Under the pieces are notes generated by a model. The model did not search any database, was not told the DNA's origin, and worked only from the letters and a program-made list of their open reading frames with translations. Of a DNA stretch of 64,000 nucleotides, positions 54,987 to 64,000 are shown in pieces. The stretch covers positions 3,985,501-4,049,500 of the forward strand of contig NZ_CP023344.1 in assembly GCF_002310495.1 (NCBI RefSeq). The letters run 5' to 3'. A program made the position numbers and the translations under genes. Each line of letters begins with the position of its first letter. The stretch's first letter is position 1. Origin of the DNA: Nibricoccus aquaticus. Its GTDB lineage: Bacteria > Verrucomicrobiota > Verrucomicrobiia > Opitutales > Opitutaceae.

Positions 54987-56063
54987 ATGCTCCTTTCATG
55001 TCTCCAATTTCTCACCTCCCGCTGTCTTTCTCTTATCCGTCGCGGGCTGGCGTGGGGGCGCGAGTGGGCGGATGGGGCGCCGGAGCGCGCGGCGTGGATT
55101 TATCCGAAGGATGAGCTTTCGCCGGAGGCGCGGTATCGGGATTTCAATCATCGGTACTTCGCGAGTTTGCACGAGCAGGAGCGGATGCTGGCGGACCGGC
55201 AGCGAATGAATTTCTACCACGCGGCGATCTCGCGGCATATCAAGCCGGGGGCGCGGGTGATCGATCTGGGGACGGGCACGGGAATCCTGGCGGCGTTCGC
55301 ATCGCGGGCGGGCGCGGCGAAGGTTTATGCGATCGATCACTCGAAGATTCTCGATCACGCGAAGGAGATCGCGGCGCACAACCGGCTGGAGAACGTCGAG
55401 TTCGTCGCGAAGCACAGCAAAGAGTTTTCCCTGACGGAGAAGGTGGACGTGATCCTGCACGAGCAGATGGGCGACTGTCTTTTCGACGAGGCGATGGTGG
55501 CAAACATCAGCGATCTGCGGGAGCGGTTGTTGAAACCGGGCGGGCTGATCGTGCCGAGCCGGTTCGAGCTTTTTTGCGAGCCGATCAAAGTGCGCGATGA
55601 ACGGCTGGTGCCGTTTATTTGGGAGATGACGGTGAAGGGTTATGACTACGGTTGCATGGAGCGGAGTCGGCCGCAGGAGCCTGCTTACTACCGGCTCGTG
55701 AGCACCGATCTCGGGATCATCGATCACTATCTGGGGAAACCGGAGCCGGTGTTGTCGTTCGATCTGCACACAGTGAATGAAGCGGAGCTGCCGCAGGAGA
55801 TTCGTTTTTCACGCACGGTCGTGAACGCCGGGCGGCTCGATGGCTATGTGGTGTTTTTCCGCGCGATGGTGGACGAGGATTTGAGCCTGAGTTCGTCGCC
55901 GCTCGATCCGCAGCGCGCGCCGCATTGGGGGTTTCGTATCCTCAGGACGGATCGCGATGACTTCGTGGTGGGTGACGTGATCGAGGTCACTCTGAAGGTC
56001 GAGAAGTGGCCGGTGCTGGAGACGTGGAGATGGAGTCACACGAAGCGTGCGAAAGCTGTTTAA
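54987..56063 (+). CDS. Protein arginine methyltransferase-like SAM enzyme
   Basis: 358 aa. Class I methyltransferase most like PRMTs. Residues ~50-75 (YFASLHEQERMLADRQRMNFYHAAI) match the PRMT HEEML-D--R---Y helix. SAM motif I VIDLGTGTGILAAFASRAGA is at about 90, AIDHSKIL binds the ribose, the double-E loop is HEQMGDCLFDE (about 157-168, both Glu present) and a PHW triad at about 312 resembles the THW loop. Then a beta-barrel C-terminal domain. No other bacterial operon partner is evident; target unknown. The start at 54987 is chosen as the first ATG of a long open frame. Its stop overlaps the next gene tail-to-tail. Confidence 0.8.
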   Translation: MLLSCLQFLTSRCLSLIRRGLAWGREWADGAPERAAWIYPKDELSPEARYRDFNHRYFASLHEQERMLADRQRMNFYHAAISRHIKPGARVIDLGTGTGILAAFASRAGAAKVYAIDHSKILDHAKEIAAHNRLENVEFVAKHSKEFSLTEKVDVILHEQMGDCLFDEAMVANISDLRERLLKPGGLIVPSRFELFCEPIKVRDERLVPFIWEMTVKGYDYGCMERSRPQEPAYYRLVSTDLGIIDHYLGKPEPVLSFDLHTVNEAELPQEIRFSRTVVNAGRLDGYVVFFRAMVDEDLSLSSSPLDPQRAPHWGFRILRTDRDDFVVGDVIEVTLKVEKWPVLETWRWSHTKRAKAV

Positions 56064-57058
56064 GGAAACAGCGGCTGGGCGGCGGTGATTTTTTCTTCTT
56101 CGCGCGCGAAGCGGTAGAGGGGAGTCGGCGGGTTGCGGTCGAGCTGTTTGTGCAGCGCGGGGTCAGTGCGCTTGAAGAGTTTCAGGTCGTGAAGGCCGGT
56201 GGCGTCGCAGGCGAGGAGGTCGGTGTGGGCTTTGTGGACGCGAAGGCGACCGAGGACGCGGCTGGCGTCGGGCGGGAGCGGAGCGGACGCGGGGCGGAGG
56301 TTCTTTCGTTCGAGGACGAGGACGCTGTAGGGAAGCGAGCGGAGATCGACGCCTGCGCGCTGGCCGAATTTCACCCAGTTGGAATCGGCGTAGATGCCGG
56401 AGGGCGCTGGGGCGAAGTAGTGGCACCAGTGGCGTTCGTTGGCGGCGGTGAAGAGCGGGCAATCGAGCGCGTGCGTGCAGGGGGCGACGAGGTCGAAGTC
56501 GGCGCGGAGTCGATCGCGGACGGAGGCGAGGTCACGGCTGACGGCGTGCGTGCCGGGCTCGATCCAGATGACGGCGTCGGCGCGGTCGATCAGGGCGAAG
56601 AGTTCGGAGCGGGCGGGGGCGGGGAGTTCGTTGAGGACGTGGCTAAGAAGAAGAGTGAAGGGGGAAGAGTGAGGGGTGAAAGGGGAGAATTCGGAGACGG
56701 AGAGCGTGGGGAAGTTTTCTTTGGCGGCGGCGGTGGCGAACTGGCGGGCGAGGGGGGAGTGGTCCCAGACTTGGAGCGTATCGAAGTTCTCGGCACCGAA
56801 GGCGGAGAGGGCACGGCGGCCGGCGATGCCGCTGCCGCAGCCCCAGTCGAGAAGTGTGCGGGAGGGCGGTGTCCAGTTACGGCGACGAAGTTCGGCAAGG
56901 ACGGCGTCCCATTTCCAGCCGACGCGTTCGGCGTAGGTGAAGTCGTAGCTGGCGAGGTCGGAGAGCGAGCGCCAGTAGGGGCCGTTGGCGGCGGAGCCGG
57001 AGAGGAAGCCGTCGCGGAGGCGGTCGAGGGCGGGCCAGTCGAGGTCGGACCAAGTCAT
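56060..57058 (-). CDS. Rsm22-like small-subunit rRNA methyltransferase family protein
   Basis: 332 aa. SAM-binding LLDWGCGSGIAGRRAL near residue 70, SHVLNELPAPAR (about 138), and the Cys/His cluster CTHALDCPLFTAANERHWCHYF (about 194), which matches the C-x(5)-C...WCH pattern of Rsm22/METTL17 proteins associated with ribosomal small subunit assembly. A strip SPFTPHSSPFTL before SHVLNEL is encoded by a heptamer repeat. The C-terminal ~90 residues (LRVHKAHTDLLACDATGLHDLKLFKRT) form a small beta domain. Converges on the PRMT-like gene with a 4-nt overlap of stops. Confidence 0.75.
   Translation of the reverse strand: MTWSDLDWPALDRLRDGFLSGSAANGPYWRSLSDLASYDFTYAERVGWKWDAVLAELRRRNWTPPSRTLLDWGCGSGIAGRRALSAFGAENFDTLQVWDHSPLARQFATAAAKENFPTLSVSEFSPFTPHSSPFTLLLSHVLNELPAPARSELFALIDRADAVIWIEPGTHAVSRDLASVRDRLRADFDLVAPCTHALDCPLFTAANERHWCHYFAPAPSGIYADSNWVKFGQRAGVDLRSLPYSVLVLERKNLRPASAPLPPDASRVLGRLRVHKAHTDLLACDATGLHDLKLFKRTDPALHKQLDRNPPTPLYRFAREEEKITAAQPLFP
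56652..56693. repeat. In-frame heptamer repeat within the Rsm22-like gene
   Basis: AAGAGTG AAGGGGG / AAGAGTG AGGGGTG / AAAGGGG AGAATTC, six 7-bp units, 42 nt. It encodes the Ser/Pro/Phe/Thr strip between SAM motif I and SHVLNEL on the minus strand. Confidence 0.65.
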
Positions 57059-57100
57059 GAAAAGGCGGGGAAGAAGGACGAAGCGGATGGAGAGGATGAG

Positions 57101-57306
57101 TTAATCGGGAACTCAGGAAGGCTGGAAAAAGGCGGGGATGGATTGAAACGCAAAGACGCAAAGACGCTAAGTCGCGAAGGCGGAGCAAAGTGAAGACGAA
57201 TGAGGCGGACTTAATCTGGAACCCAGGAACACTGGAAAAAAGGGGGGGGACGGTTTCGGTCTGGTTGATGCCAAGTTGCTGAGGTTCGTTCCTGAGTTCC
57301 AGATTC
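57101..57306. repeat. MITE-like inverted elements, copies 2 and 3
   Basis: A left end AATCGGGAACTCAGGAAGGCTGG (from about 57101), octamers ACGCAAAG ACGCAAAG / ACGCTAAG TCGCGAAG, then a second unit whose left end AATCTGGAACCCAGGAAC (57213) and right end GTTCCTGAGTTCCAGATT (to 57306) are inverted repeats matching at 17 of 18 positions. Confidence 0.65.
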
Positions 57307-57312
57307 GGAGTT

Positions 57313-58530
57313 TTAGAGGGAGAGGCCGAGGCGCTTGGCGAGGTGTTGGTGGCGGATGCCGTGGTGGCGGGCGAAGGCGCGGACGGCGTCGGTCGTGACT
57401 TCCTGGGGACGGATGCGGGGTTTGAGGGCCGCGATCAGGAGATTGGCGGCGCTGGTGGCGGAGGTGGGGCGTTCGAGGGTTTTAATTTTGTAGCCGGCGC
57501 AGGCGAGGATGAGGGCGCGGAAGGCGTCGGTGATGGGGCCGGTCTGATGCGCGAGAAGGGTTTCCTGATGGATGGCTTCGGGCCAGTGGGTGGGGGCGGG
57601 GAGCTGGGCGCGAAGTTCGCGGTGGGCGCAGGGCTCGACGATGATCAGAGGAGCGCCGGCGGCGATGCCCTGGGCGAGAGCGTCGTCGGCATCGGTGTCG
57701 CGGGCGTTGAGCGCGATGAGCACGTCAAACTCGGGAGCGGAGGCGCCGGGGGCGGGAGGTTTGGTGAAGGCGAGGTTGATCAGGCCTTCGGCGCCGGCGA
57801 CGCGGTTGCAGAGATCGAGGAGGGCGGGGTTGGCGTCGATGCCGTGGATGCGTGCGCGGGTGCCGAGCGTGGTGGCGAGGGCGAAGGCGAGCTGGCCTCG
57901 ACCGGAGCCGAGCTGGACGATGGTGATGGGGTGTTCGCGGGCGGAGGCGGTCTTCTTTTTAGACGGGCGGACGGCGTATTCGAGGAGCGGAGTCAGCCAG
58001 CTGAGAAATTCGTTGATGAATGCGGGGGAGAAACTGGTGGCGTCGAGGACGCCGGCTTTTTTGGCGGCGGCATCGAGGGCGCGGTTCCACGGGGTGGCCG
58101 TGGAGGCGGCGGGCTCAGATGTGGGCGTGGGTGAAGTTTCGTCCTGAGCGGGAGTGTCGTCGGGGCGGGACGGCATTTCGCTGTTGGGGGTTATCTTGAG
58201 GCTGCCGACGCCGCGGAGGGTGAAGGTGAGCTGGTAGGTCTCGGAGGCGCAGACGAGGTGGGCGTCGAGGAAGGTTTTGCCGATGAGGTTCTGGAGTTCG
58301 GCGAGCGCTTCGTGGATCGAGAATGTTTTTTCGGTTTGGTGGCCTTCGTGGATGTGGATGAAGGTGATGATTTGTTTGCCGGGGAGCAGGGAGGTCTGGC
58401 GGACGGAGATGGCTCTCATGCGGCGGTCGAGGCCCTGGTATTTTTCGAGGACCATCTCGGCGAAGGTGCCTTCGTAGAGCGCGGTTTTCAGCTGGGTGAA
58501 AAACCGGTCGCGGGCGGTGGGCATGGGCAT
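57313..58530 (-). CDS. Methyltransf_32-like protein with degenerate motifs (paralogue A)
   Basis: 405 aa from ATG at 58530, a start supported by alignment with the paralogue (MPMPTARDRFF versus MPQPTARERFF); the longer frame runs into repeats. N-terminal ~120-residue domain (TFAEMVLEKYQGLDRRMRAISVRQTSLLPGKQIITFIHIH). The SAM domain has VQLGSGRGQLAFALA (about 206), but the family HACD block is ALNARDTDADDAL and the PCC block is EPCAHRELR. C-terminal FARHHGIRHQHLAKRLGLSL matches paralogue B. Possibly altered or lost catalysis. Confidence 0.7.
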   Translation of the reverse strand: MPMPTARDRFFTQLKTALYEGTFAEMVLEKYQGLDRRMRAISVRQTSLLPGKQIITFIHIHEGHQTEKTFSIHEALAELQNLIGKTFLDAHLVCASETYQLTFTLRGVGSLKITPNSEMPSRPDDTPAQDETSPTPTSEPAASTATPWNRALDAAAKKAGVLDATSFSPAFINEFLSWLTPLLEYAVRPSKKKTASAREHPITIVQLGSGRGQLAFALATTLGTRARIHGIDANPALLDLCNRVAGAEGLINLAFTKPPAPGASAPEFDVLIALNARDTDADDALAQGIAAGAPLIIVEPCAHRELRAQLPAPTHWPEAIHQETLLAHQTGPITDAFRALILACAGYKIKTLERPTSATSAANLLIAALKPRIRPQEVTTDAVRAFARHHGIRHQHLAKRLGLSL

Positions 58531-58563
58531 GGCGAAGAAAGGGGTGTGGCGAAGCGGAGAAGA

Positions 58564-58805
58564 GTTAATCTGGAACTCTGGAAGGCTGGAAAAGGCAGGG
58601 GAGGAATTGAATCGCGAAGAGGCGAAGGCGCGAAGGCAGAGCAAAGAGGAAGAGACGGATGAGGCGGAGTTGAGGTGAAATTTAGGCGGGCTGGTATGCG
58701 ACGGGTGAGTTGAAGCGCGAAGACGCGACGACGCGAAGGTTTCGATTTCGGCGGTTGTCTGCGGATGGCTCGTTTCGGTTTTCCTGAGTTTCGGAGTATG
58801 GATTA
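58564..58805. repeat. MITE-like element, copy 4
   Basis: Left end AATCTGGAACTCTGGAAGGC (58566 onward), octamers TCGCGAAG AGGCGAAG / GCGCGAAGG. A second GCGCGAAGACGCGACGACG stretch lies near 58712, and a decayed right end TTTTCCTGAGTTTCGGAG is near 58779. It separates the two Methyltransf_32-like genes. Confidence 0.5.
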
Positions 58806-60212
58806 TCAGAGAGCGAGGCCGAGGTGGGTGGCGAGTTGGTGGTGGCGGATGCCGTAGAAGCGGGCGAAGGCGCGGATTTTTTCGGCGGTGGGGTCGTTAG
58901 CCGTGCCGCGGTCGCGGGCCTTGATCGCGGAGATCATGAGGTTTTTCGCGGTGTGCTCGGTGGAGATGAATTCGAAGACTTTGGTTTTGTAGCCGGCCCA
59001 TTCGAGGAGTTGGGCGCGAAGGGCGTCGGTGACGAATTCGGCGTGGCGTTCCTGGAAGATGCCGTGGCGCAGGGCATCGGCGAGGACGGCGGGGGCGGTG
59101 AGTTGCGGGCGGAGCTCTTTCTGGCAGCAGGGGGAGACGACGAGGAGTCTGGCGCCGGCGTTGATGCCGCGGAGGAGAGCGTCGTCGGTCGCGATGTCGC
59201 AGGCGTGGAGCGCGATGAGGATGTCGAGCGACTCGAGCTTGGCATCGGCGATGGTGCCGGCGGCGAAGCGGAGCGTGGGGAGATTATTTTCGCGGGCGAG
59301 GCGGTTGCAGAGTTCGACGAGTTCGGGGCGGGTTTCGATGCCGAGGACGTCGGCGCGCGGGCCGAAGAAGGCGGCGGTGGCGAAGGTGAGGTAGCCTTTG
59401 CCGGAGCCCATGTCGGCGATGCGGAGCGGGGCGGGGGAGGAGGCGGAAGGTTGAGCGTTGAGAGCTGAGGGTTGAGAGACGAAGGACGAAGGCTGAGTCG
59501 CGAAGGCGGCGTCGAGGGGTTTGGCGGCGGGGATGAGGTTGGCTTCAGCGGCGAGGTGGCTGAGGAGTTCGACGAATTTATTTATCTGCCGGAATTTTCC
59601 GGCCATGGCCTCGACGGGCTGGCCACGCGCGTTGGTGATGCCGAGAGGGCGGAGCCAGGGTGTGGTGATCGGAACGAGATGGCCGCGGGGGCGATCGTGG
59701 GAAATCGCCGCGACGGGCGCGGGCGGGAAGGAGCGTTGAGCGCCGAGAGTTGAGGGTTGAACGCCGGACGACGGAGCGGAGGGAGTTGGCGGAGGTTGAG
59801 CGGCGGATTGGGTGCCGGGAGTGTCAGCTGATTCGGGGAGGGGCGTCAGGGCTGACGGGGCGGGAGAGTTTTTTTTTAGCGAGAAGCGGGCGGTGCCGTC
59901 GGCGGCGGTGGTGAGCTGGACGGTTTCGGCGTCGGTGAAGAGGTGGGCGTCGAGGAAGTCGGTGCCGGTGAGTTGCTCGATGAGGGCGATGGCTTCGCCG
60001 TAGGGGTGGTTCTTCGTGATGTCGCGGGTGGCGTGGCGGTAGACGAAGGTGAGCTGGGGGCCGGTCTTCAGGACGACGGGGCGGATGAAGAGGTTGTTGA
60101 GCGTGGCGTCGCGGCCGCGGTGTTTGCCGAGGGTGAGCTTCACGAAGGTGCTTTCCGCGAGGGCGGTGCGGAGGAGCGGGAAGAAGCGTTCGCGGGCGGT
60201 GGGTTGCGGCAT
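58806..60212 (-). CDS. Methyltransf_32-like SAM-dependent methyltransferase (paralogue B)
   Basis: 468 aa from ATG at 60212 (MPQPTARERFF). An N-terminal domain shared with paralogue A, a Pro/Ser/Ala linker (about 125-165), then a conserved GITNARGQPVEAMAGKFRQINKFVELL helix. SAM motif ADMGSGKGYLTFA (about 265), ALHACDIATDDAL (about 334) and SPCCQKELR (about 361) are all intact, as in the METTL25/GSTCD-type family; the C-terminus is FARFYGIRHHQLATHLGLAL. Two interdomain stretches (QPSSGVQPSTLGAQRS and TQPSSFVSQPSALNAQPS) are encoded by heptamer repeats. Substrate, probably RNA, unknown. Confidence 0.8.
   Translation of the reverse strand: MPQPTARERFFPLLRTALAESTFVKLTLGKHRGRDATLNNLFIRPVVLKTGPQLTFVYRHATRDITKNHPYGEAIALIEQLTGTDFLDAHLFTDAETVQLTTAADGTARFSLKKNSPAPSALTPLPESADTPGTQSAAQPPPTPSAPSSGVQPSTLGAQRSFPPAPVAAISHDRPRGHLVPITTPWLRPLGITNARGQPVEAMAGKFRQINKFVELLSHLAAEANLIPAAKPLDAAFATQPSSFVSQPSALNAQPSASSPAPLRIADMGSGKGYLTFATAAFFGPRADVLGIETRPELVELCNRLARENNLPTLRFAAGTIADAKLESLDILIALHACDIATDDALLRGINAGARLLVVSPCCQKELRPQLTAPAVLADALRHGIFQERHAEFVTDALRAQLLEWAGYKTKVFEFISTEHTAKNLMISAIKARDRGTANDPTAEKIRAFARFYGIRHHQLATHLGLAL
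59443..59505. repeat. In-frame heptamer repeat within paralogue B (first)
   Basis: GCGGAAG GTTGAGC / GTTGAGA GCTGAGG / GTTGAGA GACGAAG / GACGAAG GCTGAGT / CGCGAAG: nine units, 63 nt, a multiple of three. It encodes the Ser/Gln/Pro linker just before the SAM motif and is related to the AACGCTC array at 37590. Confidence 0.8.
59733..59788. repeat. In-frame heptamer repeat within paralogue B (second)
   Basis: GCGTTGA GCGCCGA / GAGTTGA GGGTTGA / ACGCCGG ACGACGG / AGCGGAG GGAGTTG: eight degenerate units; a ninth (GGAAGGA) may precede, giving 63 nt. It encodes the linker after the N-terminal domain. Confidence 0.65.
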
Positions 60213-60659
60213 GGGGTGATGGCCGCGCAAGACAGGGCGGAGCGCAATGGGTTTTTGCGCATGCGATCCAAAGCATGCGCACGGTGCATGTTCAGATCGG
60301 AGGCGTTGAGTGAGAAACTGCGATCAGTCTGAGCCGCATTCCGTGGCCGTGTGCAAAGTTTGCCCCTTTTCCAGACGTGCCGGGAAAAGGAAGACCGGTA
60401 TTCGCGCAGGCATTTCGGGGCTGTGAACTGCGGGAAATGCGAGTGAGGTACGAAAGCGGGCTGGGCGATTGTTGAAGCGCAAAGAGGCGAAGACGCTAAG
60501 GACGGAGCGAAGGGCGAGGAGGTTGTCTCGCGAAGGGGCGAAGGTGGCGAAGCGAGAAGCGCGGTGAGGTCGCTGTGGTTCCTGGGCGTCAAACAGCGCG
60601 TCCCAAATCTGGCACCGCAAACATTCAGATCTGACCCTTTTTCTGTGAATTCAGTAAAC
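60213..60659. other. Repeat-bearing intergenic region
   Basis: 447 nt upstream of paralogue B and downstream of the hydrolase gene. It should hold the promoter of paralogue B near 60215-60330. The distal half is direct-repeat copy A. No convincing ORF. Confidence 0.45.
60436..60641. repeat. ~205-bp direct repeat, copy A
   Basis: Runs from AATGCGAGTGAG to CATTCAGATCTGACC plus a T-run. It shares with copy B the blocks GACGGAGCGAAGGGCGAGGAGG, TCTCGCGAAGGGGCGAAGGTGG (each split here for length: GACGGAGCGAAGGGC, GAGGAGG; TCTCGCGAAGGGGC, GAAGGTGG), GTGAGGTCGCTGTG and GGCACCGCAAACATTCAG. Contains the octamer motif CGAAGACGCTAAGG. Confidence 0.8.
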
Positions 60660-61538
60660 TTACTGAGCGGGCTGCGCTGGCTCAGGTTTGGCGTGAGTTT
60701 CTTTGTCGCGCGCAGCTTCCACAACCCAGCGTACTGCGTTGGCGACGAGTTCTGGCTCAGTTGAATTCAGGTTATGCCCGCTCTTGCTGGTCACGATGTG
60801 CATGCCGCGCGACGATGTCGCGAAAAGTTCGCCGTGAAGCTGGCGCAGGATTTTCAGCTGTGATTCCGGCCGGTCGGGTTTGAGTCCGGTGATGACGACG
60901 AGGGGAACATCCGGCAATTTCCCCGGCAGTCCTAGATTGCCGGAGGCCCAGACTGGCGACAAGTCTTCTAACTCACGGACGGAAACGGGGTCGGGACGTG
61001 CGCGGAGAATGTCGATTGTGTTTTTAATGGCTGTACCTGGCTCGACGCCCATCAGTCGATCGCCTTCGAACCACAGTCGTTCGTGAGCACTTTCCGCGAG
61101 GACGAGGCCTGCCACTTCATCCGGGTAGAGCGTGGCGAACGCGCGAACGTAGACGCCGCCGAGCGATGCTCCGACCAGAACGTAAGGCGGACGGCAGCCG
61201 GCTTTTTCGAGCAAGGTGTGCAGCTCGGCCGCGATAGTGGGAAGCGTGCGCGGGCTGGTTGCCGGGCTTGAGGGCGCTCGTCCGGCACGTGCATACGCGA
61301 CGAAGGAAGTGAGTGAGCCGAGTTGCTTCCGAAGTCTGTCGCCGCTCTCGATTCCCGAGAATTTGCCGGATCCGTTTTCAAAGACGACAGTGGGCCCGCC
61401 CTTCCCGCTGCGGATGAGTGCGAGCGTGGTGCCGTTGCCAACGTCGAATTTTTCTACGGGTGGTTTTCGCGAGCAGCCTACAGTGAAGCATACGCCAAAG
61501 ACGATCAGGACACGGACGAGATGTTGCAGCATGAACAT
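60660..61538 (-). CDS. Alpha/beta-hydrolase lipoprotein
   Basis: 292 aa. Lipoprotein signal MFMLQHLVRVLIVFGVCF, then TVGC with the lipidated Cys (about residue 22). Alpha/beta-hydrolase core: VVFENGSGKFSG (oxyanion region, about 50), nucleophile GASLGGVYVRAFA with Ser near 124, ITGLKPDRPE and C-terminal KSGHNLNSTEPELVANAV with the catalytic His. Esterase or thioesterase of the periplasmic or outer-membrane face; substrate unknown. Bracketed by two copies of a ~205-bp direct repeat. Confidence 0.85.
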   Translation of the reverse strand: MFMLQHLVRVLIVFGVCFTVGCSRKPPVEKFDVGNGTTLALIRSGKGGPTVVFENGSGKFSGIESGDRLRKQLGSLTSFVAYARAGRAPSSPATSPRTLPTIAAELHTLLEKAGCRPPYVLVGASLGGVYVRAFATLYPDEVAGLVLAESAHERLWFEGDRLMGVEPGTAIKNTIDILRARPDPVSVRELEDLSPVWASGNLGLPGKLPDVPLVVITGLKPDRPESQLKILRQLHGELFATSSRGMHIVTSKSGHNLNSTEPELVANAVRWVVEAARDKETHAKPEPAQPAQ

Positions 61539-61899
61539 GACGGGAGATCGGTGGTGAGGCTGGTTTCGACCGCAGGATGAGTGCGAGGGACGACCGGTTT
61601 GTGGTTCATAAATGCGAGTGAGAACGAAAGCGGGCGATGCGATTGTTTAAGCGCAAAGACGCGAAGACGCTGAGGACGGAGCGAAGGGCGAGGAGGTTTG
61701 TCTCGCGAAGGGGCGAAGGTGGCGAAGAGAGAAGCGCGTGAGGTCGCTGTGCTTCTGAGTGCCAAGCCAGCGCGTTCCGCTTTTGGCACCGCAAACATTC
61801 AGGTCTGATCTTTTCCGTCCCCGTTTCTTGGAGCGTGAAGGCGAGTGTGGGAGAAAGCGGGCAGTCGTTCGAAACGCGCTCGGAGTGAGCGTTCCACCT
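61539..61899. other. Repeat-bearing intergenic region
   Basis: 361 nt between the hydrolase start and the HEPN-like gene stop. It contains direct-repeat copy B and a weak hairpin near 61866-61885 (AACGC...GCGTT). No gene seen. Confidence 0.45.
61611..61814. repeat. ~205-bp direct repeat, copy B
   Basis: Same orientation and order of blocks as copy A (AATGCGAGTGAG start, octamers ACGCGAAG ACGCTGAG, GGCACCGCAAACATTCAG end). The pair flanks the hydrolase gene at about 1.17 kb spacing. Confidence 0.8.
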
Positions 61900-62784
61900 C
61901 TAGGTCTGAGCATCTTTGTTTTCTGAATTCGGATTTCTTCGACTATAGGCAGAGCAAATATCTGCGAACGGACATCGTGGATTGTCGGGCAAATCAAACC
62001 AAGAATGAGCATCGCAACGGCCAGAGTTAAAGTCCTTGGCCTCGCTTGGCCGAACGAAACGATGGTAAAGTCTCCCAGAGAAAATCCCGCACATTTGCCA
62101 TACCTCCTCGTCTTTTAACGTAGCAAGCAATGCTCCGAAGACTTGGCCTAGGAAACGGTTTACTGAGTCAAAGTACTTTGTGAGTTCGGCGAAAATATCC
62201 GATATGTATCTGAGTTTTGCTTCATCCCTAATCGCGTCATGAAAGTACATGACTAAGCCAGTCTCACGATTCAGGTGGCAATTTCCGGGGCCGATATGGG
62301 CAAGTGCATCTCTTAATTCGCGAAGTCCGTGATACCACTTCGCGTCACAGAACGCGGCGCGGATTGGTTCGGGAGTTCGCGGATCTAGCTTTCCTGCGGC
62401 TGCTGTGTTGAACGTTTTGCGGGTTGATTCAGGAAATCCTTGGAAGCCTTGAGAACCAAATATGTGGGTAACGATCTTCCTGCCTGCGTCTATTGATGCA
62501 TATAGCGAAGTGATTGTAGCCTCAATCACAGCGGTGACCTCGCTGGACCGCGAAGATTGCGAGAATCCTTTTTGATCTAACTCCTCAAGATCAGCCTTCA
62601 TCGAAGGCACCATAGATTCTGCGATTCGTCTCAGCGTATCAGCACGCCGAAAATGAGCTGTTGTGCCTGCGACGCATCCCTGAATTCTCGGTGGAAACGT
62701 ATAAGTTTTCCCGCAGAAGTGTGCGAACCGTTCAACGGCTCCCCAGTTCTCAGGAGAGAAATGGATAACCGTTGGAAGATTCAT
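61900..62784 (-). CDS. HEPN-like helical protein, AT-richer than surroundings
   Basis: 294 aa, no signal peptide. Mostly helical centre: VTAVIEATITSLYASIDAGRKIVTHIF, then WYHGLRELRDALAHIGPGN, where RDALAH fits the R-x4-H motif of HEPN nucleases, then FAELTKYFDSVNRFLGQVFGALLATL. The C-terminal ~60 residues are basic and Cys/His-containing (CDAHSWF..CPFADIC). Base composition and codons are clearly less GC-rich than neighbours, suggesting horizontal acquisition. No MNT or other antitoxin partner is next to it. HEPN assignment is tentative. Confidence 0.55.
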   Translation of the reverse strand: MNLPTVIHFSPENWGAVERFAHFCGKTYTFPPRIQGCVAGTTAHFRRADTLRRIAESMVPSMKADLEELDQKGFSQSSRSSEVTAVIEATITSLYASIDAGRKIVTHIFGSQGFQGFPESTRKTFNTAAAGKLDPRTPEPIRAAFCDAKWYHGLRELRDALAHIGPGNCHLNRETGLVMYFHDAIRDEAKLRYISDIFAELTKYFDSVNRFLGQVFGALLATLKDEEVWQMCGIFSGRLYHRFVRPSEAKDFNSGRCDAHSWFDLPDNPRCPFADICSAYSRRNPNSENKDAQT

Positions 62785-62798
62785 GGCGGCTACACTAC

Positions 62799-64000
62799 TT
62801 ACCTTGGCGGGAATTCGAAGTCGGCTTTCTTTTTGTCTTTGGAGAGGACGAGGTAGGCGCTGAAGGTTGAACCGCGTTTCGAGACGAAGCCGTCGATGAG
62901 GTTGGTTTTGCCGTCTTCGCCGAGGAGTTGCTGGACTTCGCTCGCGGGGATTTCTTTTCCTAGGAGCGTTTTCTTTAATTCGAAAACCGCGCGCGGGGCG
63001 TTGTCGGCGCCGCTGGGTTTGGCGACGACGTAGGATTCGTCGGTTTCGTAGAGGTCGGCGTCGTGGGCTTTGCTGGTGCCGAGTTTCTTCGCTTTGGAAA
63101 TGTCGAGCGGGGCCTTGGCTTTGCGGGCGATGGGCTTGCCGTCTTTGCCGACTTTCGGGGCGCGGGGCGGGAATTCCCAGTTGATCTTCGCGCCGTTGCG
63201 CAGGAGGTAGGCGTCGAAGGGGCGGCCTTTTTTGGAGGTGAAGCCTTTGATGAGGTCAGACTTTCCTTCGCTCACCATCTTGATGGCGTCTTCGCGGGTG
63301 ATGGCTTTCTGGCACATCAGGCGGCCGACGCTGAAGGCCTGCGTCCAGGCGCCGTCTTGTTTCTCGCGGAGGACGTAGCTGGTGGGCGCTTCACAGAGTT
63401 CGGCGCCGGTCTTCGGGTCGGTCCAGAAGGGCGTGAGTTCGTTGATCTCGAACTTGTTTCCGAAATCGAGTTCGACCTTCCGCTTGCCCTCATTTTTGAC
63501 GTCGTCGACGAGGCGGAGTTTGGCGGGGAAACGGTTGCCGGTGCGCGGCGACACGAAGCCATCGAGCGGGCCGATCTCGCCGACGGTGACGAGTTCGCGG
63601 ATCTCGGTTTCTTCGAGTTTGCGGCCGGTGACGACTTTGTAGACGGCGAGGACGCCGTCCTGGGATTTGTAGGCGCGCAGGGTTTCGAGCATGGGTTTGC
63701 CGTCGGTCGGCGAGACGATGTCGGTGACGCGGGAGTTGGATTCGTCTTCCTCGAAGTTTTTGGTGCGGTCGACGATGCCTTTGGTGACCTCGACGATCTC
63801 GTCCATGAACTTCGGACGGGCGTATTTGTTATGCTCCATCAGGCGGAGCTTGTGTTCCCACTGGCCGGTCATGTCGGGCTTGGTGAGGGCCTCGGCTTTG
63901 ACGGCGACGAGGAACTCGAGGAGCGACTCGGCCTTCGGTGTGGGGGCGAGGTCGCGCTGCACGCGCTCCATGTATTTCTGATTGATGAGGCCGTCGATCG
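62799..64000 (-). CDS. topB: DNA topoisomerase III-type enzyme, C-terminal part
   Basis: Frame open to the window edge; translation there reads IDGLINQKYMERVQRDLAPTPKAESLLEFL, the late core of a type IA topoisomerase, so the N-terminal Toprim and active site lie outside. After QWEHKLRLME..FMDEIVEVTKGIVDRTKNFEED come several C-terminal repeats of the Toprim_Crpt kind with pattern GKSDLIKGFTSKKGRPFDAYLLL...(WEFPPR): at about 130-170, 225-275 and 350-390 from Met 63971. These repeats favour TopB over TopA. Ends only 14 nt upstream of the HEPN-like gene start on the same strand. Confidence 0.85.
   Translation of the reverse strand, partial: IDGLINQKYMERVQRDLAPTPKAESLLEFLVAVKAEALTKPDMTGQWEHKLRLMEHNKYARPKFMDEIVEVTKGIVDRTKNFEEDESNSRVTDIVSPTDGKPMLETLRAYKSQDGVLAVYKVVTGRKLEETEIRELVTVGEIGPLDGFVSPRTGNRFPAKLRLVDDVKNEGKRKVELDFGNKFEINELTPFWTDPKTGAELCEAPTSYVLREKQDGAWTQAFSVGRLMCQKAITREDAIKMVSEGKSDLIKGFTSKKGRPFDAYLLRNGAKINWEFPPRAPKVGKDGKPIARKAKAPLDISKAKKLGTSKAHDADLYETDESYVVAKPSGADNAPRAVFELKKTLLGKEIPASEVQQLLGEDGKTNLIDGFVSKRGSTFSAYLVLSKDKKKADFEFPPR

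Follow-up and report, generated by a model that had tools for sequence, protein, structure and literature searches.

We analyzed the window, a stretch of 64,000 nucleotides from the chromosome of Nibricoccus aquaticus (4,730,447 bases in one contig). Coordinates are those of the window unless given as genome positions. Toward the end of the window is a row of genes that includes an Rsm22-like gene, two adjoining paralogous methyltransferase genes (57313-58644 and 58806-60230, here MT2 and MT1, both matching Methyltransf_32), an alpha/beta-hydrolase gene, and ORF294 (61900-62784), which encodes an orphan protein and has a GC content of 0.49. The hydrolase gene is the only gene-like open reading frame between two copies of a repeat:

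60660-61538, minus strand: alpha/beta-hydrolase gene, 292 amino acids, matching Pfam Abhydrolase_6; a lipoprotein signal was recognized by eye only
60435-60646, plus strand: repeat unit copy 1, from local alignment, with the purine-rich strand as plus; 13 nt past the hydrolase stop codon
61610-61818, plus strand: repeat unit copy 2, from local alignment; 71 nt upstream of the hydrolase start codon

A sequence-only reading had reported two same-orientation repeats enclosing one gene. We found that this pair is real, with ends within a few bases of those reported. The two copies are in direct orientation and are 87% identical over ~205 bp, with small gaps (local alignment). BLASTN within the window gave 87.5% identity over 208 columns (E 4e-57), and a search of the chromosome with copy 1 found copy 2 at 87% (E 1.1e-63). 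The exact blocks of at least 15 nt common to both units are 30, 26, and 19 nt long. The divergence of 13% suggests that the pair is old.

Deletion or duplication of a gene through flanking direct repeats is textbook recombination, and two same-way copies around one gene resemble that arrangement. Deletion or amplification of the hydrolase gene by this route, raised in the same reading, is possible in principle (the longest exact block is 30 nt), but the pair differs from recombining repeats in its divergence and its short identity, and there was no sign of use. The bracketing copies are also unlike those of a composite transposon or an IS-flanked gene. There is no transposase in or beside them, and no transposase family was found among the seven proteins searched from 54987-63971.

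Mosaic blocks and a dispersed intergenic family

Three blocks, X, Y, and Z, make up each unit as a mosaic, and the next two intergenic gaps along this row of genes hold additional X cores:

60477-60496, plus strand: block X core of copy 1, GCGCAAAGAGGCGAAGACGC, a member of a dispersed family of ~100 copies
61651-61670, plus strand: block X core of copy 2, GCGCAAAGACGCGAAGACGC, with zero mismatches to the search pattern
60523-60552, plus strand: block Y of copy 1, 30 nt identical in both units
61698-61727, plus strand: block Y of copy 2, 30 nt identical in both units
60610-60646, plus strand: block Z of copy 1, ending in GGCACCGCAAACATTCAG.TCTGA.C
61784-61818, plus strand: block Z of copy 2, counterpart of block Z in copy 1
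57148-57175 (about), plus strand: additional X core in the gap between the Rsm22-like and MT2 genes
58715-58734 (about), plus strand: additional X core in the gap between the MT2 and MT1 genes

The cores in these two gaps, and ~100 elsewhere, had been missed in the sequence-only reading. The X core GCGCAAAGACGCGAAGACGC has 110 matches with at most three mismatches in the 4.73-Mb chromosome, and the pattern read backward has 12. The flanks of the core are conserved; in the other orientation, CTTCGCTCCGACCTTA is before the core and TTCAAC or TTAACC is after it. Block Y has six matches with at most three mismatches, both units counted, compared to none for the control, and there are weaker matches too. 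Outside the two units, block Z was seen once more, as a partial copy near genome position 3777205. A search of the chromosome with copy 1 gave 42 matches, with 40 of the 127 initial candidates scored, mostly to the core only, and no third full-length unit was among the matches listed. Each block is dispersed on its own and, among the matches seen, all three are joined in one order only in these two units. For this reason, local duplication of a single intergenic mosaic unit most likely gave rise to the pair.

Positions were obtained for 102 of the 110 core matches, and 99 of these are outside called genes (calls are from a home-made gene caller that was partly checked with Pfam and whose second form misses the hydrolase gene). 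The cores are sparse, with about one per 43-46 kb. The unit has an inner rhythm of 8-9 nt, as judged by eye. There was no match in an Rfam covariance search of 56900-62800 at E values up to 1. When the two window units alone were folded as DNA, neither strand of either unit folded better than shuffled sequences (z 1.43, -0.02, 1.45, and 0.14).

Orientation of the cores relative to replication

The GC skew of the chromosome has two switches, at about 2.097 and 4.475 Mb. dnaN (genome positions 2,097,747-2,098,871) is at the first switch. mnmE and mnmG, along with a parS-like site, are at 2.153-2.156 Mb, 55-60 kb beyond it; the parS-like palindrome, at 2,155,199, has zero mismatches to the parS motif. 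A dif-like site at 4,478,295, with at most five mismatches in the fixed part, is at the second switch. Both marker sites were identified by motif. Based on the skew switches, dnaN, and the parS-like and dif-like sites, we infer that the origin is at ~2.097 Mb and the terminus at ~4.478 Mb. Placing the origin at 2.097 Mb gives arms of 2.38 and 2.35 Mb and the usual G-rich leading strand (skew +0.21 in 20 control and switch-region stretches). An origin at dnaA was rejected: control stretches at 4.50-4.73 Mb have the skew of the other arm, and the switches are elsewhere. dnaA itself (genome positions 31-1380) is ~0.25 Mb from the dif-like site and far from the putative origin.

We found that the purine-rich strand is the leading strand in 89 of the 102 located X cores (the canonical orientation). 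Composition alone predicts a ratio of 1.09:1. Of the 13 cores in the opposite orientation, 10 have a canonical copy within 400 bp and form an inverted pair with it. Of the remaining three, one is inside a gene and may be chance. With at most two mismatches the polarity is 53:5, and four of the five exceptions are inverted partners. When copy 1 was used as an independent query, the canonical polarity was found in 38 of the 40 other matches, and both exceptions were inverted partners. All 23 occurrences of the TTTAACC-type motif were canonical as well (the backward-read control had none), as were all 20 weak matches to Y or Z. The 89:13 split of the cores is the same under either boundary because no located core is in the re-assigned control stretches. 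The exceptions among the TTTAACC-type motifs and the weak Y and Z matches vanish with the corrected arms, providing independent support for the new boundaries.

The polarity was then compared among gaps that differ in the direction of the flanking genes, using unpaired copies. The ratio of canonical to opposite copies was 38:1 where both flanking genes run against the fork and 15:1 where both run with the fork. In the latter set, copies with Pfam matches for both neighbors gave 13:1 (one short neighbor was not submitted and one was without a match). Convergent gaps gave 17:0 (the 183-base gene call behind one of these copies, which is in the window, is doubtful), and divergent gaps gave 7:0. 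Because the polarity holds in with-fork, against-fork, convergent, and divergent gaps, gene direction is not its cause.

Other motifs were counted in stretches mostly chosen around core copies. The CATTGGTCA-type motif was on the lagging strand 13 times and on the leading strand once. The corresponding counts (lagging vs leading) were 10 vs 0 for GTTCCAGATTAA, 27 vs 5 for CTCTGTGGTTAAAA, and 2 vs 6 for AACGCTCAACGCTTAACG. In the stretches examined there are also arrays of CATTGGTCATTGGTCA (e.g., at genome positions 716868 and 3949789), which are on the lagging strand in 13 of 14 cases.

The polarity could be due to selection. That is, the copies could be polar signals kept in one direction, like KOPS or leading-strand octamers that serve in translocation, repair, or segregation. 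We consider this fairly unlikely. It is consistent with the leading position of the purine-rich strand regardless of gene direction, and with the finding that several motifs have a common polarity. Outside the copies, GAAGACGC is on the leading strand 46 times and on the lagging strand 19 times; outside genes, the leading:lagging counts are 9:2 for GAAGACGC and 8:1 for AAAGACGC. In contrast, the overall count of AAAGACGC outside the copies is 10 leading vs 14 lagging. AIMS/KOPS (PMC5993296) are leading-strand-biased octamers that switch polarity at the origin and terminus and rise in abundance toward the terminus. The window family has a similar leading-strand bias but is made of dispersed repeats of 40-200 nt rather than 8-mers, and its copies are sparse. 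Its cores do not rise in abundance toward the terminus: the quarters from origin to terminus have 21, 23, 24, and 19 of the 87 canonical copies (KS p 0.19). In addition, a polarity common to several unrelated motifs suits a process better than it suits one reader protein. The fact that the purine-rich strand is the leading strand gives selection more weight, and gives less to the replication-coupled spread that we favor below.

We claim the polarity for the N. aquaticus genome only. In nine complete relatives, the numbers of core matches and backward-control matches were 11/13, 33/32, 15/9, 3/1, 6/11, 5/35, 19/2 (G076), 26/7 (G083), and 26/4 (G087). G083 may have a two-arm split: its first half has 10 minus and 1 plus and its second half has 10 plus and 5 minus (20 of 26 with the split at mid-contig). 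No clean two-arm split was apparent by eye in G076, G087, or G012. G012 has two regions, at C1 5329000-5348900 and 5356000-5375000, that are densely packed with mosaic repeats of a similar kind (GCGCAGAGACGCAGAGGCGCGGAG type, including inverted partners). The repeats are mostly one way in the first of these regions and mostly the opposite way in the second.

Close pairs of copies and the bracketed hydrolase gene

We found that canonical copies are clustered. Among 87 distinct copies, 14 were within 2 kb of the next, compared to a mean of 3.1 expected, and none of 5000 simulations reached 14. Eleven of the 14 close pairs enclose exactly one called gene, and one encloses two. Of the other two, one encloses a gene plus a doubtful overlapping call, and one is the window pair with the hydrolase gene. 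The sequence-only reading had held that many identical copies scattered at random, with no tendency to flank genes in pairs, would speak against its proposal. There are many scattered copies, but they do pair about one gene apart and in the same orientation. The window pair has the top score among 3741 copy pairs, and the adjacent pairs at genome positions 226315/227200 and 2042296/2043219 also rank among the most similar 1%. The remaining 12 of the 15 close pairs fall outside this top 1%, indicating that the clustering is mostly not the result of recent local copying.

One pair (genome positions 2042198-2042327 and 2043121-2043250; 76.5% identity over 132 columns) encloses queC, which was identified above the NCBIfam cut-off. 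Beside queC is a queE-like gene, for which the best model is QueE (E 1e-32, below its cut-off). Judging from this pathway neighbor, queC looks native. Since queC is bracketed by the same layout, bracketing is no proof of arrival.

The hydrolase gene and ORF294 were probably acquired. The GC3 of the hydrolase gene is 0.65 (rank 5 among the 183 called genes that run the same way as it does with respect to the fork), and that of ORF294 is 0.46, below all 183 called genes compared. Rsm22, MT2, MT1, and topA have ranks 67-98 of 183. Relatives of the hydrolase were found in 15 of 100 family genomes, itself counted, and the best other one is 40% identical; for ORF294, only the protein itself was found (1 of 100). 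There was no match to ORF294 in Pfam, NCBIfam, or PADLOC, and none to the hydrolase in PADLOC. ORF294 contains a stretch, RDALAH, that is reminiscent of the HEPN R-x4-H motif.

MT1 adjoined topA in none of 14 topA stretches from relatives (12 had at least 8 kb on the relevant side and two had less than 0.8 kb). This adjacency was also absent from the 19 MT1 loci examined, of 80 (14 had 8 kb upstream and five had less). The sequence-only reading had proposed a search of relatives for a single-copy empty site; there was no such site in the 14 topA stretches or the 19 MT1 loci, all from relatives outside the genus. In 14 of 19 related loci, MT1 is within 1 kb of an Rsm22-like gene and there is no second such methyltransferase.

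It is conceivable that the repeats are an arrival scar, in which a DNA circle carrying a unit and the hydrolase gene integrated at a resident unit through a single crossover and could leave in the same way. The tight bracket, the foreign composition and patchy distribution of the hydrolase gene, and the absence of the MT1-topA neighborhood from the relatives examined would all fit such an event. We nevertheless consider it improbable. Close pairs are common, the bracket recurs around queC beside a queE-like gene, and the two copies have diverged. ORF294, which is even more foreign, is outside the bracket, and 60400-61850 had no match in 72,556 plasmid and 50,697 phage records. The suggestion that the repeats may mark how the gene arrived is weakened, as the units are made of resident dispersed blocks and the layout is found at queC. 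The composition of the hydrolase gene fits a late arrival by any route.

Possible origin of the repeats and of their polarity

We think it probable that the window repeats arose long ago by local duplication of one intergenic mosaic, that the family, which is replication-oriented, was spread by a replication-coupled process, and that the hydrolase gene is bracketed because close copies are common. Short dispersed blocks, including the X core that is present ~100 times in the chromosome, would have been assembled into an intergenic mosaic unit, and one such unit would have been duplicated locally to give the window pair. The family would have spread by a process coupled to replication, with the purine-rich strand going into the lagging-strand template, the parental strand that shares its sequence with the new leading strand. 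Candidate routes are insertion of a single-stranded copy and template switching. Hairpin-guided insertion is not favored, because the units fold no better than shuffled sequences. No enzyme or insertion event behind the spread was seen in this analysis. The hydrolase gene would have come between two units since nearby copies are frequent, and the repeats would not have been its vehicle. More tentatively, a replication-coupled process in this lineage may have copied several unrelated short repeats in one fork orientation, independently of genes, and built mosaics from them, with single-gene brackets as a by-product. We regard this broader proposal as a reasonable possibility, though not as a likely one.

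Literature searches by sequence and topic turned up no account of these repeats or their spread. REP/REPIN-RAYT systems and bacterial interspersed mosaic elements (PMC6006769) are short intergenic multicopy mosaics of blocks, some of them in inverted pairs. The window family is likewise intergenic, high in copy number, and mosaic, and has 10 inverted pairs. The genome has three Y1_Tnp matches; core pairs lie near two of these Y1 genes, at distances of 0.8 and 4.5 kb, and there is none within the 11.5 kb read at the third. Still, it is very unlikely that the cores belong to a resident RAYT (Y1 transposase) as its REP or REPIN elements. One Y1 gene is flanked on both sides by other palindromes (GGACGATGCGGAGCATCGTCC type), and the two other Y1 genes have different palindromes downstream (by eye, on the downstream side read). 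No core of the window family is in the immediate Y1 flanks read. Unlike REP/REPIN, the two window units have no hairpin better than shuffled sequences, and the copies keep one replication orientation.

Single-strand insertion elements of the IS200/IS605 type (IS608, ISDra2) use the lagging-strand template (PMC6006769). Insertion of this type would yield a replication-bound orientation, but no transposase or defined ends were seen for the window family. The orientation of bacterial transposable elements is reportedly set by replication and the sliding clamp (Gomez et al. 2014, by its title). That system concerns transposable elements, whereas the repeats here are non-coding and dispersed and have no known transposase.

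Finally, orientation could mirror gene direction if the element is part of gene transcripts and most sampled genes run one way (192,456 coding bases against the fork vs 123,441 with it, from the home-made caller in stretches mostly around repeats, and 38 unpaired canonical copies between two against-fork genes), but the counts in with-fork, convergent, and divergent gaps largely refute this reading, which we find hardly plausible.

The bracket around the hydrolase gene is one case of a common layout, and direct repeats on both sides of a gene do not in themselves make it a mobile cassette. The surprise is the replication polarity of the dispersed family. Whether polarity arose through the replication-coupled spread that we favor is a question that can be tested by comparing strains and by inverting copies. 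A near-total bias relative to replication that holds whichever way the genes run points to one of two explanations: insertion at the fork, or selection that favors one direction.
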